Of a stretch of DNA of 43,781 nucleotides, positions 4,495-43,781 are shown piece by piece. The DNA comes from Gammaproteobacteria bacterium (lineage in GTDB: Bacteria > Pseudomonadota > Gammaproteobacteria > SZUA-152), in the NCBI GenBank assembly GCA_015487095.1, contig WFQM01000042.1, positions 1-43,781 of the forward strand, given 5' to 3'. Below the pieces are notes generated by a model that had not been told where the DNA came from, did not search any database, and saw only the letters and a program-made list of their open reading frames with translations. Each line of letters begins with the position of its first letter. Position 1 is the first letter of the stretch. Both the position numbers and the translations under genes were made by a program.

Positions 4495-5691
4495 GTGAAC
4501 AGTGTGCAAGCAGGCAGTGATGTTTTATTCATTCTTCTCGGGGCAATTATGGTGCTGGCCATGCACGCCGGGTTCGCGTTTCTGGAGGTGGGCACGGTAC
4601 GCAAAAAAAATCAGGTCAACGCACTGGTAAAAATCATTGTGGATTTTGCAGTTTCCACTATTGCCTATTTTTTTATCGGTTATGGCATTGCCTACGGCAT
4701 AGGGTTTATGGACGGGGCACAGGCGCTTTCTGAAAAAAATGGTTATGAGCTGGTTAAGTTCTTTTTTCTGCTGACTTTTGCGGCGGCCATTCCTGCCATT
4801 GTTTCTGGTGGCATTGCCGAGCGGGCGCGATTTTACCCGCAGGTGGTGGCGACCTTTTTTATCGTTGCCCTGTTGTATCCCTTTTTTGAAGGCATGACCT
4901 GGAACGGCAATTTCGGTATGCAGGACTGGATCAACGCCACCTTCGGTGCGGAATTCCATGACTTTGCCGGTTCGGTCGTAGTACATGCGATGGGTGGCTG
5001 GATTGCGCTGGGCGCGGTGTTGTTGCTGGGAGCACGCCATGGCCGTTATGACAAGGACGGCCGTATTTCTGCTCATCCTCCATCCAGCATTCCTTTTTTG
5101 GCGCTGGGCGCATGGATACTGACTGTTGGCTGGTTTGGTTTTAATGTGATGTCGGCGCAAACTATCGATGCGGTTAGTGGTCTGGTGGCGGTTAATTCCC
5201 TGATGGCCATGGTGGGCGGTATTCTTGCGGCCCTGGTGGTGGGCAAAAACGATCCGGGGTTTGTGCATAATGGTCCGCTGGCCGGACTGGTGGCCGTGTG
5301 TGCCGGTTCTGACATCATGCATCCCGGGGGGGCGCTGGTGACGGGAGCCGTCGCAGGCGGTTTGTTTGTCTGGACTTTTACCCTTACCCAGAACAAATGG
5401 AAGATTGATGATGTGCTGGGTGTTTGGCCCTTGCATGGTTTGTGTGGTGCCTGGGGCGGTATTGCTGCCGGTATCTTCGGGCTTGAGGCGCTGGGCGGTA
5501 TGGGGGGTGTGACTTTTGGTGCCCAGTTGGCAGGTACGGTACTCGGTGTGGGCATCGCCCTGGGCGGAGGTTTGCTGATTTACGGCATTGTCAAAAAGAC
5601 CACAGGCATTCGCCTCAGTCAGGAGGAAGAATATGAGGGTGCCGATCTCAGTATTCATAAAATTGCGTCTGAATCGAGCTACGAAAAATAA
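4495..5691 (+). CDS. amt: Amt family ammonium transporter
   Basis: This 398-residue, roughly 11-helix inner-membrane protein conducts ammonium or ammonia into the cell. It shows the strongly conserved start of the family ([22 protein letters not shown], then [12 protein letters not shown]), the [16 protein letters not shown] block with the pore histidine, and [21 protein letters not shown] with the second pore histidine. The cytoplasmic tail ends in [18 protein letters not shown], the part that normally contacts a PII protein. The GTG at 4495 is the start because AGGAGG at 4481-4486 lies 8 bases upstream and the N-terminus then matches the family; there is no signal peptide, as in the shorter Amt types. 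Unusually, no glnK lies next to it. It is followed by miaB after 128 bases. Confidence 0.95.
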
Positions 5692-5819
5692 CGCTGCCGG
5701 CTTTCCGTCGGCGGTTGGAGAACAGGAAAAAATCGGGCAAATATGCTAGTCTGTGCGGCTCTGTCATTTTTGAATGGTCGCTTGTCGGCCTCTGTTTTTT
5801 CGTCGATGGGCCACAGCAC

Positions 5820-7193
5820 ATGAAATCCACACGTACGCTTTACATCAAAACCTTCGGTTGCCAGATGAACGAGTACGACTCCGACAAGTTTGCGGAGCTG
5901 CTCGGTGAGAGTCACGGACTGACCCTGGTGGGTACGCCCGAAGAGGCCGATGTGTTGTTGCTCAATACCTGCTCGGTGCGCGAAAAAGCGCAGGAAAAGG
6001 TTTTTTCGCAACTGGGTATGTGGCGTGAACTCAAGGCACAGCGCCCCGGCGTGGTGATCGGCGTCGGCGGCTGCGTCGCTAGCCAGGAAGGAAGCGCCAT
6101 CCGCCAGCGCGCACCGTACGTGGATCTGATTTTCGGTCCGCAGACCTTGCACCGTCTGCCGCAGATGCTGGATGCCCTGCAACAGCAAAAAAAACCGCAG
6201 GTGGATGTCTCTTTCCCTGAAATCGAAAAATTCGACAACCTGCCCGCCCCCAAAGCCGATGGCCCCACGGCCTTTGTTTCCATCATGGAAGGGTGCAGTA
6301 AATACTGTACTTTTTGCGTGGTGCCGTATACACGCGGTGAAGAAATCAATCGTCCCTTCGATGACGTGTTGGCCGAAGTGGCGCAGCTGGCGATGCAGGG
6401 CGTGCGCGAAGTCACCTTGTTGGGACAGAACGTCAATGCCTTCCGTGGTGTCATGGATGACGGCGAAATTGCTGATCTGGCCCTGTTGATCCACTATGTG
6501 GCCGCAGTGGAAGGCATTGATCGCATTCGTTACACCACCTCACATCCCGTGGAATTGTCCGATTCGTTGATTCAGGCCTACGCCGAGGTACCAGAGCTGG
6601 TGGGTCATTTGCACCTGCCGGTACAGACCGGCGCAGACCGCATCCTGATGCAAATGAAGCGTGGTCATACCGCGCTGGAATACAAAGCCAAAGTGCGTGC
6701 TCTGCGCGAAGTGCGACCTGATTTGAGCCTGTCGTCGGACTTTATCATCGGTTTTCCCGGTGAAACCGAAGCAGATTTTCAGGCCACCATGAAGCTGATT
6801 GAAGACATCGGCTTTGATCACTCCTTCAGCTTTGTCTACAGTGCCCGCCCTGGTACTCCAGCAGCCGGGTTACCGGATGACGTGCCGCTGACAGTAAAAA
6901 AACAGCGTCTGGCTATTTTGCAGGCGCGCATCAGCGAAATGGCAGCGGCGATCAGTGCCGGAATGGTGGGTACAGTGCAGCGCATATTGGTGGAGCGCCC
7001 CTCGCGTAAAGATGCCAATGAAATGAGCGGACGCACAGAAAATAACCGCGTGGTTAACTTTGCCGGGCCACCGCGGCTCATTGGCGAATTTGTGAATGTG
7101 CGTATTACCGAAGCTATGCCCAACTCCCTGCGCGGCGAAGTTGTGTTACTGGATGACGAAAAGGCATTGGCGGTTGAGCGCAGAATGGCGTAG
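5820..7193 (+). CDS. miaB: tRNA-2-methylthio-N6-dimethylallyladenosine synthase MiaB
   Basis: MiaB adds the methylthio group to i6A37 in tRNAs reading UNN codons, using radical SAM chemistry. The 457 residues show the N-terminal UPF0004 domain with cysteines 14, 51 and 85 for the auxiliary iron-sulfur cluster. The radical SAM motif CSKYCTFC provides C159, C163 and C166, followed by VVPYTRG. A C-terminal TRAM domain ends at the [12 protein letters not shown] region. The ATG at 5820 begins the typical [19 protein letters not shown] start; the TTG-initiated extension from 5715 is not conserved-looking. It is the first gene of the miaB-ybeZ-ybeY-ybeX-lnt operon, with 12 bases to the next gene. 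Confidence 0.97.
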
Positions 7194-37709: not shown

Positions 37710-40346
37710 ATGGGCATTTTTAATCAGTTATTTGGGGCAAACGCTATGCGCGCAAGCGGGTACAAAACAATGAAAACAACACGCTGCTTAAGTTTATTTT
37801 TACTCTCCGGCATACTTGCATTGTTCGCAGTAATGGCGACTGCTGCCGATGAGCCCACCGTTTCACTCGATTTCATCGACTTCAAAAAACTGTCGAATGA
37901 TGCCGTTGAAATTCGCATAGCTCTATCTGCTGATGCGCCACAAACAACAGATTTCACTTCTGATAATCCTGCGAAAATTTCTCTGGATTTACCGGGCGTC
38001 AGTAATAACCTGCCCTGGAGCCTGCCTCTACCCGTTGGCATTGGCGTCACCAAAAACGTTAAAGCCGTACAGGCAAAAGGACGGACCCGTGTCGTCGTTA
38101 ATGTTGACAAGCTAGTCACTTACGAATTGCGTACGGAGGGTAAAAATATATTTCTGACTGTGGGTGAAAATGTCCCTGCTGAGCAACAAGTTGCTGTAAC
38201 AGACACTATGCCTGCGCCTGAACCCGAGCCTGCCCCACCGCCGGTAAGCAAACCAACGCCCATTGAGCGCGCTTCAGGCAATGGTGCCACCACCAGCCTG
38301 AAAAATGTTTCTTTCACCTCATTGCCGGGTGACAGTATGCAGATTCGTTTGAGCTTCTCGGGTCCGGCCAAAGCGCCAGGAAACTTTACCATCAACAATC
38401 CTGCGCGTATTGTTCTGGATTTCCCCAAAACCAGTAGCAAGCTGGGCTGGAAAAACAAAAATATCGGCATTGGTTTTGCCAAAAGTGTCACCGCCGTTGA
38501 GGCTGGTGACCGCACGCGCATTATTTTGAATCTTGTGCAGCTTATTCCCTTTGAGAGTGAAGTGTCCGGCAACAATGTCATTGTGACATTGGCGGGTAGT
38601 CGTACCGCGCAAACTCAAACTACGGCAGCCGTCAGCAATAAAGCAACGAGCGCAGCATTGTCAGCAACATCGGGGCTGCACCGTATCAATAATATTGACT
38701 TCCGCCGCGGCAAAAATGGCGAAGGTAAAATTATTGTCGGCCTCTCCGACAATAATACGCCCATTAGTACCGGTGAATCCGGCAATCAGGTTTTTGTCGA
38801 GTTTGGTGATACAGGTCTGCCTAAAAACCTGCAACAGCGCCTCGATGTGATCGATTTTGCCACTCCTGTGCAGTACATTGATGCCACTCAATCAGGAGAC
38901 CGTGTTCGTCTTGCGATTACGCCCACCGGAAATTATGAATATCTGGCCTATCACACGGGTAATAGCTACACCATTGAAGTTAAAGAAATTCCCAAAGAAA
39001 AGGCGGCAGCCGCCAGAAAAGATCAGTTTGGTTATACCGGCGAGCGACTTTCTCTGAATTTCCAGGACATTGAAGTCCGTGCAGTGCTGCAATTAATCGC
39101 CGACTTCACCAACCTGAATATGGTGACCAGTGATTCGGTGCAAGGCAATCTCACGCTGCGCCTGAAAAATGTGCCGTGGGATCAGGCTCTCGACCTTATC
39201 CTGAAAACCAAAGGTCTGGCCATGCGTAAAGCGGGTAATGTCATTATGGTTGCACCCGCACAGGAAATTGCTGCTCAGGAAAAGCTGGAACTGGAGGCCA
39301 ACAAACAGATTGAAGAACTGGCACCCATCAAAACAGAAATCATTCAAATCAACTTTGCCAAAGCCGGGGATATTGCCACCATTTTATCCGCAGAAGGCGG
39401 TACGTTATCTGAGCGGGGAAGTGCCACGATAGACCAGCGCACCAATACATTGCTGTTATCCGACACTACTGACCGCCTGGACAGTGCTCGGGAACTTATT
39501 GCCATTCTCGATATTCCGATCCGGCAGGTGATGATTGAATCACGCATTGTGATTGCCGATGATGACTTCGCCAAAGACCTCGGTGTGCGCTTCGGCGTAA
39601 CATCCGTCAACGACCGAAATGGCGATTTACTCTTTGGCTCAGGTTCACTGGACGCAACGGATAATATGGCTGGTTCTGCGTTGGACAATCTTGCCAGCGG
39701 CACTCCCAACGCGCCTTACCCTATTGAAATCCCCATGGGAGCCGGTGGCATTCCCCAGCGTATGAATGTAAACATGCCAGTGGTCGGCAACAATGCCGGG
39801 CGCATCGCGCTTTCCATACTTGGAGCGAATACTCTGCTTGATTTGGAGCTTTCTGCCTTACAGCTTGAGTCCCGAGGTGAAGTGGTTTCCAATCCGCGTG
39901 TCATTACTGCCAATCAGAAAGAAGCTCTCATTGAACAGGGTACTGAAATACCCTATCAGCGGGCAGCCTCCAGTGGAGCCACTGCTGTATCGTTCAAAAA
40001 GGCTGTTTTGAGTCTGAAGGTGACACCACAGATTACGCCCGATGATCGTATTATTCTCGACCTCAAGGTCAACAAAGACAGCGTCGGTGTACTTTTTGCT
40101 GGCATACCCAGTATCGACACCAAGGAAATTGAAACTCAGGTGCTGATGAATAATGGCGAAACAGTGGTATTAGGTGGTGTATACGAGCAAGTTACACGCA
40201 ATGAACGGGACAGTATTCCCTTCCTTGGTGACCTACCCTTCATTGGCGCCCTGTTCCGCACGACACGGGAGCGTAATGAGAAGTCTGAACTGCTCATCTT
40301 CGTCACACCCAAAATCCTCAAGGATCAATTTGCGGTAAAACCCTGA
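37710..40346 (+). CDS. pilQ: Type IV pilus secretin PilQ
   Basis: PilQ forms the outer-membrane channel for the pilus. The 878-residue product carries a signal peptide reached through either of two alternative downstream Met starts (MKTTRCLSLFLLSGILALFAVMATAA is the signal region). Three AMIN-type peptidoglycan-binding domains follow at about 45-145, 195-295 and 325-415; the third is less typical. Then come a secretin short N-terminal domain (about 445-515), a secretin N1 domain, and the secretin barrel (about 610-870). ALLFRTTRER near the end has the family ending LLIFVTPKIL. GAGGA at 37696-37700 supports ATG 37710, which gives an extended N-terminus of 20 residues before the signal-like Met. 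It is last in pilMNOPQ. Confidence 0.96.
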   Translation: MGIFNQLFGANAMRASGYKTMKTTRCLSLFLLSGILALFAVMATAADEPTVSLDFIDFKKLSNDAVEIRIALSADAPQTTDFTSDNPAKISLDLPGVSNNLPWSLPLPVGIGVTKNVKAVQAKGRTRVVVNVDKLVTYELRTEGKNIFLTVGENVPAEQQVAVTDTMPAPEPEPAPPPVSKPTPIERASGNGATTSLKNVSFTSLPGDSMQIRLSFSGPAKAPGNFTINNPARIVLDFPKTSSKLGWKNKNIGIGFAKSVTAVEAGDRTRIILNLVQLIPFESEVSGNNVIVTLAGSRTAQTQTTAAVSNKATSAALSATSGLHRINNIDFRRGKNGEGKIIVGLSDNNTPISTGESGNQVFVEFGDTGLPKNLQQRLDVIDFATPVQYIDATQSGDRVRLAITPTGNYEYLAYHTGNSYTIEVKEIPKEKAAAARKDQFGYTGERLSLNFQDIEVRAVLQLIADFTNLNMVTSDSVQGNLTLRLKNVPWDQALDLILKTKGLAMRKAGNVIMVAPAQEIAAQEKLELEANKQIEELAPIKTEIIQINFAKAGDIATILSAEGGTLSERGSATIDQRTNTLLLSDTTDRLDSARELIAILDIPIRQVMIESRIVIADDDFAKDLGVRFGVTSVNDRNGDLLFGSGSLDATDNMAGSALDNLASGTPNAPYPIEIPMGAGGIPQRMNVNMPVVGNNAGRIALSILGANTLLDLELSALQLESRGEVVSNPRVITANQKEALIEQGTEIPYQRAASSGATAVSFKKAVLSLKVTPQITPDDRIILDLKVNKDSVGVLFAGIPSIDTKEIETQVLMNNGETVVLGGVYEQVTRNERDSIPFLGDLPFIGALFRTTRERNEKSELLIFVTPKILKDQFAVKP

Positions 40347-40419: not shown

Positions 40420-40689
40420 TCAGGTCAGCTTTCCAATTAATGACACCGCAACTTCGGCAAGTCCCGTAATATTTTTAATAGCATCTGCTTTTTCGCTATT
40501 TGATTTTGAGGCATCATTCACCACGCTGATCAACTCAGACAGTTTTTCTTTATCAACTTCTGCTGTCTCAATGATTGAGATGATTTCCGCTTTGGTGAGC
40601 CTGATGATGCTGGACGCCTCTGTGGAATATTCTTCAATTGCGATTCCGCGTGCTTTATTCCTGAGCGCCTGCCACTCTTGATCGTTCAT
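40420..40689 (-). CDS. Small helical protein, unrecognised, last in three-gene block
   Basis: The 89-residue protein is predominantly helical, acidic and rich in serine, glutamate and lysine, with no signal peptide, no membrane segment and no cysteine. I recognise no family. Its ATG overlaps the stop codon of the lipoprotein gene before it (ATGA), so the two are almost certainly translated together. It follows the order barrel, lipoprotein, small protein. Base composition is more A/T-rich than in pilQ, suggesting recent acquisition. Confidence 0.65.
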   Translation of the reverse strand: MNDQEWQALRNKARGIAIEEYSTEASSIIRLTKAEIISIIETAEVDKEKLSELISVVNDASKSNSEKADAIKNITGLAEVAVSLIGKLT

Positions 40690-41294
40690 TTGTCAGTCTC
40701 CTTATCCAGAGCTGATTCGAGTTTTTCAACGAGATTAATAGCTTTGCCGGATTTTTCACCATTTCTTTCGACAAAATCATCCAGTTCAGCAAAAATGTTG
40801 TTCAGATTTATATTCCCAGCAGTTGCCCTGGATAGTTTTTCATATGTTTCAGGTCTTGCTTCTTTATTCGTTACCGCAGATTGCAACAGGTTGGTAACAG
40901 AGGCATTCGCCTGATTAAGAATCGAGTAGTTTTCACTTAATTTTCCGATTAAATATACCCTTGCTTTTTCCAACTCTTCCTTTGCCGCGTTATTCTTACG
41001 GGTTATCAGAATTACATCATCAGCCACATCATTTAATCGACTTGCAGTCAGTGTTATGGAACCAGTTGGTGTGAGCGTTTCAAAATAATGGTTGAGCGCC
41101 TTTGCCATGGTTTCGTCCAGGCGGTTACGTTTAATGGAAAAGTGGAGATTTATAAGATCAATTTGAGATTGATGCTGTTTTTGTAATCCAATGCCCACTT
41201 CACTGCTTAATTTGACAGACTCTTGGGGGATTGTTGCGCAGGCAGTGAGCAGCACTATAATCAGCGCAAATATATGTGTTTTGATTTTTGTCAT
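40686..41294 (-). CDS. Coiled-coil lipoprotein, unrecognised
   Basis: The 202-residue product has a lipoprotein signal with lipobox LLTAC (cysteine 19) directly followed by ATIPQ. Almost all of the remainder is predicted helical, with heptad-like spacing of hydrophobic residues (about 30-200) and many lysines and glutamates. I know no family for it. Residue 2 after the cysteine is alanine, so retention in the inner membrane (aspartate rule) is not predicted and the protein would go to the outer membrane. It is coupled to the small gene downstream by a 4-base overlap. Confidence 0.72.
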   Translation of the reverse strand: MTKIKTHIFALIIVLLTACATIPQESVKLSSEVGIGLQKQHQSQIDLINLHFSIKRNRLDETMAKALNHYFETLTPTGSITLTASRLNDVADDVILITRKNNAAKEELEKARVYLIGKLSENYSILNQANASVTNLLQSAVTNKEARPETYEKLSRATAGNINLNNIFAELDDFVERNGEKSGKAINLVEKLESALDKETDK

Positions 41295-41477
41295 TTCCTT
41301 ATCCCTGTTAATAGTTGCTTGTTTTTATTTAATGTTACTGCCCCATAAACTTAAAACCTTGTGCGCCATACCTGGAAACATTTTTCTGTTATTTCAGCGT
41401 AGCCGAAGCCTAATGCTTGTGTTAGTTTGCGGGATGTTGTCGGCCAGCATAGAGGCGACGGATAACACTGCCGTATT

Positions 41478-42275
41478 TTAGTAATGTACTGATAACCCAA
41501 TATAGGGTCCCTGCAATGATTCACTACCCGCACTTAATTTTCTGTAACCAAACCTGGTCGACATATAGGCAGACTTTAACAAAACACTTAAATCATACTC
41601 AGCAACATTTCCTGCCCAGGATGGCCGGAACTCAAATCCTACTCTACGATAGGGGTGAATCAGAATTGGGGTGGTAATGTATAGATATGACTTCTTCTCG
41701 TTACCATGAACTTCAAGTGACCCAATTCCCCAGTCAACCTCTAAATGTGCCCCGAAAGACATTCTGTATAATCCGTAAACTCGGGTAAGTTTTAGTGAGT
41801 CTTTTGGTTGTCTCTCTCTGTAGCGTGTTTGACTATAAGCTAACGCAATAGCACCATAGCCGGTTTCAAACCGATAGTCATGTGCCTTTGTTCTGGAATC
41901 ATTACGTTGATAGCCTAAATCCAGTTTTACAAATGGTATTAGTGGTTCGCCAGCCAGTCTGAGCGGAACATTATCAAGAGACTGAGTTTTGTCACCAAGT
42001 AAAATGTTCTGCGGAGAGCCGTTAATACGATAAAAGCTATATGTACCGCCAAAAACAATAACGTGAGATATCACGTTAGATGCAATATCAGATAGAAAAC
42101 ACCCAAAACTCAATTCATCTGATTTGCAGGATTTTTTGTTACTATTACCCTCTTTCGGTTTTACGCTATCTTCAAACTCATCCAGACTGCCAGCATAAGA
42201 TGAGGAAGCCAATAGCATCCACATAAAAACCAATATACACATCAAATTATATAAACGACTCAATATCGTATTCAC
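41478..42275 (-). CDS. Putative outer-membrane barrel protein, unrecognised
   Basis: The 265-residue protein has a signal peptide (about 1-28, cleavage near SYA-GSL), an acidic, lysine-rich segment with two cysteines at about 50-58, and then a series of amphipathic strands. These include FVKLDLGYQRN, YRFETGYGAIALAYSQTRY, VYGLYRMSFGAHLEVDWGIGSLEV, SYLYITTPILI and RVGFEFRPSWAGNV, and the end GPYIGLSVHY has the alternation and terminal aromatic residue of outer-membrane barrels. I cannot name the family. The start is a GTG, with no clear ribosome site. It is 183 bases upstream of the lipoprotein gene. A/T-rich compared with the pil genes. Confidence 0.62.
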   Translation of the reverse strand: MNTILSRLYNLMCILVFMWMLLASSSYAGSLDEFEDSVKPKEGNSNKKSCKSDELSFGCFLSDIASNVISHVIVFGGTYSFYRINGSPQNILLGDKTQSLDNVPLRLAGEPLIPFVKLDLGYQRNDSRTKAHDYRFETGYGAIALAYSQTRYRERQPKDSLKLTRVYGLYRMSFGAHLEVDWGIGSLEVHGNEKKSYLYITTPILIHPYRRVGFEFRPSWAGNVAEYDLSVLLKSAYMSTRFGYRKLSAGSESLQGPYIGLSVHY

Positions 42276-42765
42276 ATATGCTAAGAATTGGGTATCAATG
42301 TCTGATGGACTATGCCGTCATTACTGAGGCAGCCGATCATGGGGATTGTATTGAAAGGGGTGGGGCTTGTCGAAGGGTGATATACCGTTATGGCTGAAAT
42401 TATGTTTGATGTGCTATTTCCCTGACCATTTTCAGGTCCATCATTCATCCGAGTTTTTTCGTTCGTCACCAATGAAATCGACCAGCCTGACGGGTGTTTG
42501 GGGCGTTTGTGATTGCGGTTGATCACGCTCAGCAGTTGAAATTTGATGAGTTCGTATTCGCACCTGAATGGATGTGTCATCGGATGCTTTCGGGGTGGGG
42601 TGATGTCAGCCCGTATGGGGTTGAATACAGGCTGGCCTGGTTTTTGCGAAGCTTTGGCATCCGTGCCTCTTTCATGTGAATCATACGCCTTGCGTACCGA
42701 ATAAGGATCGGCAAGGGTGTTAATTAATTGATGGGTGTCTCTATTTTTACGCTCTGGGCGGGCTT
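42276..42765. other. Gene-poor region with possible transposase fragment
   Basis: No convincing gene lies here. On the minus strand at 42577-42660 a 27-codon frame begins MPKLRKNQASLYSTPY, which resembles the first residues of REP-associated (IS200-like) tyrosine transposases, but the expected histidine-bearing core does not follow; at best it is a remnant. A 99-codon minus frame at 42281-42580 has no ribosome site or recognisable domain. The region begins, on the minus strand, right after the R' box of the attC site and may be a degraded cassette. Confidence 0.4.
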
Positions 42766-42829
42766 GTTCAACCAGATGATAAAGTCGCGGCTCAGCCGCG
42801 CGACTTATCCTTGTTTGTTTTTGTTATGC
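42766..42829 (-). other. Integron attC site of the EVE-HNH cassette
   Basis: Read on the minus strand: R'' box GCATAAC (containing the stop codon of the EVE-HNH gene), a 13-base spacer, arms GATAAGTCGCGCGGCT and AGCCGCGACTTTATC with unpaired extra bases, a 5-base spacer, and R' box GTTGAAC matching GTTRRRY. The site would fold as an attC hairpin. The uneven spacers are untypical, which lowers confidence. The complement of R'' (GTTATGC) equals the R' box at the other end of the cassette, as expected for a recombined cassette. Confidence 0.68.
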
Positions 42830-43528
42830 GTAATGTTCATGGCGATGACAATTCGGGCATAATGCCACTGCATTTTCAACCATGTCGTCGCCGTCATCAG
42901 CCAACCGAATTATGTGATGCACTTCGAGATACGGTTCACCCGACGATTTTTTAATAAATGGGGCGGGCTCTTTACATCGTTCGCATTTGCCACCTGCTCG
43001 CTCTAATACCTCGGCAATCACATGGGGATTCCTTCGGAATACCGATTGTACGGTTTGAATTCTTTCGGGTTTGGGCGTGGTAGTTTGTAAGTGTTTTGCG
43101 CGTTCAGATTTGCTAAGCGCTCGGGAATCATAGACATTTTGATCAAGCTCATTGATCTCGGTATCGAGAGAGGTTGGTCTGACTGAACAAATCCGGTCAT
43201 AAACTTCGGACGGAATTAATACTGCATGGTGTCCGCGGAGGTTCTGCTTCACGGGCGCCCACTTCGGCGCAAGTGCTTTGAGTTCTCCGATCGTAACAGG
43301 AGGACTGATTTCTCTGAGAAATCGTACGTCGCATCGGTAGTATTGACCTTCTTTTCTAGGGGTGGATTCAATAATCCATTCCGCCGTAATGCCTGTTCCG
43401 CCCGTGATGTATATGAACGCCTTATCGCCAAGTTTGGCTTTGGCGCTACAACTCCAGTCACTACGGGTGCCCGCACGAACTTTGCTATATTCCGTTTCAG
43501 GTTTTGCTACAAACAAGAATGCAGTCAT
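42824..43528 (-). CDS. EVE-HNH protein, probable modification-dependent restriction endonuclease
   Basis: The 234-residue protein has an N-terminal EVE (PUA-like) domain at about 1-118, of the kind that binds modified cytosine by base flipping. A charged linker follows, then a C-terminal zinc-bound HNH nuclease at about 160-234. Zinc cysteines are C182/C185 and C224/C227, and the core is LEVHHIIRLADDGDDMVENAVALCPNCH with H204/H205, N219 and H228. This layout matches known EVE-HNH enzymes such as VcaM4I, which cut DNA with 5-hydroxymethylcytosine and thereby restrict phages with modified genomes. I start at ATG 43528, 15 bases after the upstream R' box; the frame open to 43702 runs through attC and the intron and is not coding. 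The stop codon lies inside the R'' box, typical of compact integron cassettes. Confidence 0.85.
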   Translation of the reverse strand: MTAFLFVAKPETEYSKVRAGTRSDWSCSAKAKLGDKAFIYITGGTGITAEWIIESTPRKEGQYYRCDVRFLREISPPVTIGELKALAPKWAPVKQNLRGHHAVLIPSEVYDRICSVRPTSLDTEINELDQNVYDSRALSKSERAKHLQTTTPKPERIQTVQSVFRRNPHVIAEVLERAGGKCERCKEPAPFIKKSSGEPYLEVHHIIRLADDGDDMVENAVALCPNCHRHEHYA

Positions 43529-43543
43529 AGTGCTCTCACTTAC

Positions 43544-43634
43544 GCATAACGCCAATATCAGCGGCAGCCTAAAGTGGCGCGAATTTTTGCGACAGCAAAA
43601 TTCGTGACGCTTTAGGCTGTCCGCTGAATATTTT
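43544..43634 (-). other. Integron attC site interrupted by a group II intron
   Basis: On the minus strand the site ends in R' box GTTATGC (43550-43544). Before it stands a long imperfect palindrome: AGCGGACAGCCTAAAGCGTC and CACGAATTTTGC return as GCAAAAATTCGCGCCACTTTAGGC and CTGCCGCTGATAT-like sequence, with single extra-helical bases. Such unpaired bases are characteristic of attC. The outer R'' box should stand just beyond 43634 but is replaced by intron sequence. It belongs to a preceding cassette outside the window. Confidence 0.78.
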
Positions 43635-43781
43635 GTGTACGCCCAGCATGGGCATGAACTAATGAGGTGAAAGTCCTCTGTAGGAAGATCACCGTCGAAC
43701 ACCGTGTTGTTAGTAGACGATAACTACTAGCGAATGGCAAGGGCCAACCCGCGAGGGGCGGTCTGAAGGAAGCCGGATGCA
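43635..43781 (+). mobile_element. 5' end of group II intron (IIC-attC type), truncated by window end
   Basis: The sequence begins GTGTACGCCC, folds at once into a GCCCA/TGGGC hairpin, and continues with GAGGTGAAAGTCCTC, GGGCCAACCCGCGAGGGG and CTGAAGGAAGCCGGATGCA. These are conserved pieces of domain I in bacterial group II introns. It is in the outer R box of an attC hairpin and antisense to the cassettes, which is the documented target of the IIC-attC subgroup. The exact 5' splice site is either 43635 (GTGTA start) or 43637 (leaving TTTTGT as the 5' exon, which would fit a TTGT|T target). The reverse transcriptase gene must be beyond the window. Confidence 0.85.

Follow-up and report, generated by a model that had tools for sequence, protein, structure and literature searches.

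We conclude that the minus-strand gene next to pilQ, close to the right end of the window (the whole stretch of DNA analyzed here, 43,781 nucleotides from a Gammaproteobacteria bacterium), is probably a truncated single-gene integron cassette with a type IV-like EVE-HNH cargo, lying in an array that was later damaged by an IS91-family element and a group II intron. According to this model, an integron integrase would have inserted the cassette behind another cassette, whose attC lies at 43544-43634, at the end of an array beside pilQ. A modified base, probably a cytosine, would be flipped out by the EVE domain of the encoded protein, and the DNA carrying it would then be cut by the McrA-type HNH domain, so that phage with modified DNA would be restricted. 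We reconstruct the subsequent events in the following order: an IS91-family element would have joined the R'' box of the cassette, deleting the rest of its attC, and a group II intron would have entered the upstream attC. Because these two elements damaged the array, the cassette is probably no longer excisable. The features on which this model is built are as follows.

42613 to 42751, no strand assigned: dispersed repeat; homology to the sister pilQ locus stops at 42751.
42754 to 42819, minus strand: 66-bp solo end (transposase-3'/ori side) of an IS91-family element, apparently replacing the remainder of the attC.
42823 to 42829, minus strand: R'' box GCATAAC, with the stop codon inside; sole apparent remnant of the cassette's own attC.
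42824 to 43528, minus strand: cassette gene, encoding 234 aa with an EVE-fold N-terminal domain, a helical linker and a McrA-type HNH nuclease.
43544 to 43634, minus strand: attC of the upstream cassette, with R' GTTATGC at 43550-43544; the covariance model match (43544-43642) extends into the intron.
43635 to 43781, plus strand: 5' end of a group II intron (IIC-attC type, assigned through relatives), in the attC bottom strand and leaving the contig; start placed to within 1-2 nt.

The cassette gene runs in an intact frame from an ATG at 43528 to a TAA at 42824-42826. Its start lies 15 nt beyond the R' box GTTATGC (43550-43544), 21 nt away from the recombination point, and its stop lies within GCATAAC, both as originally predicted and both visible in the sequence. 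The matching ends that had been claimed for the unit are also present, and the match is longer than was claimed: reverse complementation of GTTATGCGTAA (43550-43540) gives exactly TTACGCATAAC (42833-42823), a match of 11 nt in a search of about 950 bp, in which a 10-nt end match is expected by chance about 0.001 times. Such an inverted match fits a cassette that was once a circle. The 5' end of the unit falls at the G|TT point of the upstream attC (43544-43642), and this TT... end is complementary over the same 11 nt to the unit's own R'' box; at the 3' end only R'' is left of an attC, and we have therefore filed the cassette as truncated, not functional.

We searched for attC sites with a covariance model (R1) built from 13 attC of five sister genomes, with the window left out. 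The model finds one clear site in the window, at 43544-43642 on the minus strand (57.0 bits, E 2.7e-12), and this site is the top of its seven matches across the whole assembly; the putative downstream attC at 42766-42829 scores 4.0 bits (E 4.5, filters off). The original prediction of a complete integron cassette thus stands with respect to the cassette, given its ends and the upstream attC, and falls with respect to its completeness. The upstream attC is homologous to the first attC behind intI in a related locus (L101). Matches to R1 are present in all 12 genomes of the genus, and integron integrases scoring above the curated cut-off, with ordinary cassette arrays, are present in eight of the 12. 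No intact intI above the cut-off was found in the window's assembly (96.8% complete), which yielded two fragments only: one containing the integron-specific patch as well as an in-frame TAG (G000:C16:4718-4921) and one that is an N-terminal piece (G000:C30:3469-3612); the contig itself ends in a repeat. A common motif, ACAGATTCTGTATATTGNACTG|TTAG, stands directly before cassettes at about 3820-3860 in L017 (G000:C8) and at about 2080 in L118, with no integrase near, and may represent an orphan attI or else a secondary site.

A search of the window against Rfam at the gathering threshold gave no match; at the right edge RF02001 matches in part (23.7 bits, E 0.0066), truncated where the contig stops. 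An intron copy in L051, about 95% identical to the intron end of the window, scores 134.9 bits against RF02001, and in L101 the 3' end of an intron, with domain V, adjoins an R''-like box. Introns of the group IIC-attC type run opposite to the cassettes and insert into the bottom strand of attC, close to TTGT at R'' (PMC7923331). The intron of the window resembles them in orientation and in insertion site, which is in the attC bottom strand beside R'' (sequence 43620-43645); only about 147 nt of it are in the window, and its assignment to the class rests on relatives. Separately, L003 (G000:C327) contains a second cassette-like gene, with a SET domain, together with an attC-like hairpin and then a group II intron 5' end.

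The damage to the array raises the possibility, which we consider doubtful, that the gene is a dead or silent relic, that is, an intact frame without a promoter in a decaying array. The state of intI, the truncated attC and the marks left by the intron and the IS91-family element would all fit such a relic, as would the often weak expression of cassettes distant from the array promoter (reviewed in PMC12409362), but the reading frame is intact with all catalytic residues kept, and some integron genes of V. parahaemolyticus have expression of their own (PMC12409362). The truncated cassette, with a gene that would be expressed, is the preferred reading.

The cargo had been claimed to be an EVE domain joined to an HNH nuclease, and this is borne out. 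The EVE domain occupies about residues 1-115 and the McrA-type HNH domain about residues 165-234, with the helical linker between them. The HNH family PF01844 matches at E 9.6e-12; the EVE family PF01878 (E 1.7e-4, 22.1 bits) falls just below its cut-off of 23 and is supported by the predicted fold. The AlphaFold model, computed from a 36-sequence alignment, has a pLDDT of 85.1 (a single-sequence fold, with a pLDDT of 46, was discarded), and its best Foldseek matches are EcoKMcrA (6ghc, 2.2e-9), VcaM4I (6yex, 7.3e-7) and the EVE proteins 1zce, 2eve and THYN1 (5j3e); the fold of the EVE domain is matched by 1zce, 2eve, 5j3e and 6yex. By sequence, the protein matches EcoKMcrA at E 1.4e-21 and the PADLOC type IV model at E 1.9e-22. 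Residues C182, C185, H204, H205, N219, C224, C227 and H228, which cover the catalytic and zinc sites of the HNH domain, are invariant across the 36 sequences. An initial scan of genome contigs with the single cassette protein returned no relatives, and a search with the N-terminal 126 aa alone found none among plasmids, viral contigs or 398 genomes of the phylum. On a Pseudoalteromonas megaplasmid (L037, 5905-6672) there is a relative of residues 30-234 at 36%; its neighbors are a WYL-domain gene and a large gene for a reverse transcriptase, and a defense island is therefore possible there.

By analogy with characterized enzymes, the cargo is most probably a type IV-like restriction endonuclease that depends on DNA modification, and it may prefer hydroxymethylcytosine. 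In VcaM4I, 5mC or 5hmC is flipped into the pocket of the EVE domain (PMC7897488; base-flipping pocket residues P24, W82 and Y130). This enzyme has the same N-terminal EVE fold and C-terminal HNH in one protein, and the Foldseek match to 6yex is full-length; it differs in that sequence similarity to the cassette protein is below phmmer detection and in that its reported residues are H224, N241 and D250, whereas the cassette nuclease has the H-N-H and the Cys4 site of the McrA type. EcoKMcrA (6ghc), a type IV enzyme, shares the C-terminal HNH with identical catalytic and zinc-site residues, but the match is limited to about residues 124-234, and EcoKMcrA has 287 aa, as against 234 aa with an EVE-type N-terminus in the cassette protein. 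A census of the EVE-HNH architecture has been published (PMC7641849). That the protein is instead a nuclease whose N-terminal domain reads RNA or some other ligand, or a toxin, or a helper of another system, seems to us improbable: its joint EVE and McrA-HNH architecture equals that of characterized restriction enzymes (PMC7897488) and the cassette holds no partner gene, set against an N-terminal domain without close relatives, the YTH domains (m6A readers) that Foldseek also returns, and the placing of EVE domains in several processes by Bell et al. (PMC7641849).

Most of the stretch that had been taken for the cassette's own attC (42766-42829) is the 66-bp end of an IS91-family element. The block at 42754-42819 has 22 further copies in four sister genomes (G371, G197, G376 and G378), 20 of which stand directly after TAAC, as in the R'' core of attC, with varying bases before it. 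Full copies of the element, of about 2.3 kb (L127 and L117), contain a tyrosine recombinase gene and an IS91-family transposase (L127:3356-4408; Y2_Tnp 148.8 bits, Zn_Tnp_IS91 81.3 bits), and in two homologous cassettes without the element a full attC begins exactly at the insertion point (L117 compared with L101, and L124 with L151/L159). The copies after variable TAAC, the transposase in the full copies and the empty sites together identify the block as an IS91 end, a 66-bp remnant. In a cassette-closure test, matches of 7 nt were too common in 3 kb to prove insertion of IS91 in attC by themselves, so that the two empty sites were given more weight. The window's copy of the end comes after GCATAACAAAAAC, which places it a few bases farther from the box than most copies are. 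A search of the window's genome for Y2_Tnp returned nothing, which is weak evidence because the search had no positive control. That the 66-bp block might be the attC of the genus was rejected, since full copies lead into the IS91 transposase and the true attC family was identified. For at least two insertions, the IS91-family end falls precisely within an attC R'' box.

As we read the sequence, then, the attC of the cassette has lost L'', L' and R', and an IS91-family terminus stands in their place. The mobility attributed to the unit is accordingly not upheld, with the R'' box as the only survivor of the attC and no intact intI in the assembly. It is very unlikely that the unit is a complete mobile cassette with its attC at 42766-42829 (R'' GCATAAC, R' GTTGAAC), movable given an integrase: the stretch does resemble a short attC by eye, with AAC, GTTGAAC and a GC hairpin in which one base is bulged, and the IS91 end might work as an attC mimic, but the covariance score given above is against it, the same 66 bp with its constant "R'" joins many different R'' boxes, its full copies run into the IS91 transposase, and homologous cassettes without the block carry a normal attC at that point.

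The claimed setting next to pilQ is correct. The gene at 37710 to 40346 on the plus strand that we take to be pilQ, a name given from its sequence and from knowledge of the family, ends a pilNOPQ run and lies outside the cassette. The pilQ region of the sister genome G376 shares 94% identity with the window as far as window position 42751, and beyond the equivalent of that position there is a different cassette, with an attC of 29.0 bits; pilQ thus adjoins a cassette region in two species. Because the sister genome has another cassette at the equivalent place, the pilus locus looks like a neighbor of the array boundary, not a functional partner of the cassette. At the pilQ locus of the sister species (L107, about 5354-6603; G376:C82) there is a serine-hydrolase gene with an attC. 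The repeat at 42613-42751 is likely tied to RAYT/REP-type transposases; dispersed repeats of the window at 42284-42748 are common to many sites of the genus, near RAYT-like transposase genes. Three minus-strand genes (40420-42275) separate pilQ from the cassette, none with a Pfam family above the cut-off.

We also asked how McrA-type HNH genes are carried elsewhere, using 80 relatives of the HNH domain collected from genomes. Across the 90 loci that were scanned, model R1 has 33 matches with E<0.5, every one on the strand of the gene, as against two matches in 70 viral relatives. Nine McrA-type HNH genes are found as single-gene cassettes: in L186 and L192 the gene lies between two attC, with an 11-nt match of the ends; L217, L191 and L212 have shorter end matches; and an attC is present at one side of the gene in L207, L180, L182 and L188 (that of L188 being, on its own, weak, at E 0.37). 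The TAA lies within an R''-like TAAC in seven of these nine. Over the 80 loci, end matches of at least 7 at TAA-C stops were observed seven times, against a mean of 1.4 and a maximum of 6 in 300 permutations. Compared pairwise, ten cassette-borne proteins have similar nuclease ends in all 45 pairs (60.6-74.6% identity) and similar N-terminal parts in one of the 45, and for nine of the ten no Pfam family was found in the N-terminal part. Because the attC model was trained on one genus, we regard this recurrent pattern as a well-supported lead and not as a census. Two broader propositions, taken jointly, seem to us evenly balanced between right and wrong: that the McrA-type HNH nucleases form a modular, integron-adapted defense family, in which one conserved nuclease end recurs in single-gene cassettes with interchangeable and mostly undescribed sensor domains, present in many bacterial groups and usually with the stop in R''; and that one IS91-family element of the genus prefers attC R'' boxes and hence immobilizes cassettes.

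Defense cassettes and EVE-HNH enzymes are each known already. Defense genes in integrons were reported in 2025 (Darracq, Getz and Kieffer, as cited through PMC12409362 and PMC12444791), and size-reduced type II and type IV systems are among those described in integrons (PMC12409362). As far as the accounts in these sources go, the cassette of the window is like the phage-defense cassettes of sedentary and mobile integrons in being a small single-gene defense candidate, and differs in its truncated attC, in the absence of a visible intact integrase and in that its activity is predicted. The modular packaging of McrA-HNH and the habit of IS91 in attC may be new; our literature search yielded no account of McrA-HNH as a recurring family of cassettes or of IS91 in attC, and the key 2025 papers may cover them.

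The locus corrects a tempting misreading, in which an IS91 end is mistaken for an attC, and indicates that mobile elements striking an attC can freeze cassettes. The combination of one nuclease with many unrelated sensor domains yields a short list of undescribed domains that can be tested gene by gene, and these N-terminal domains may recognize modified phage DNA.
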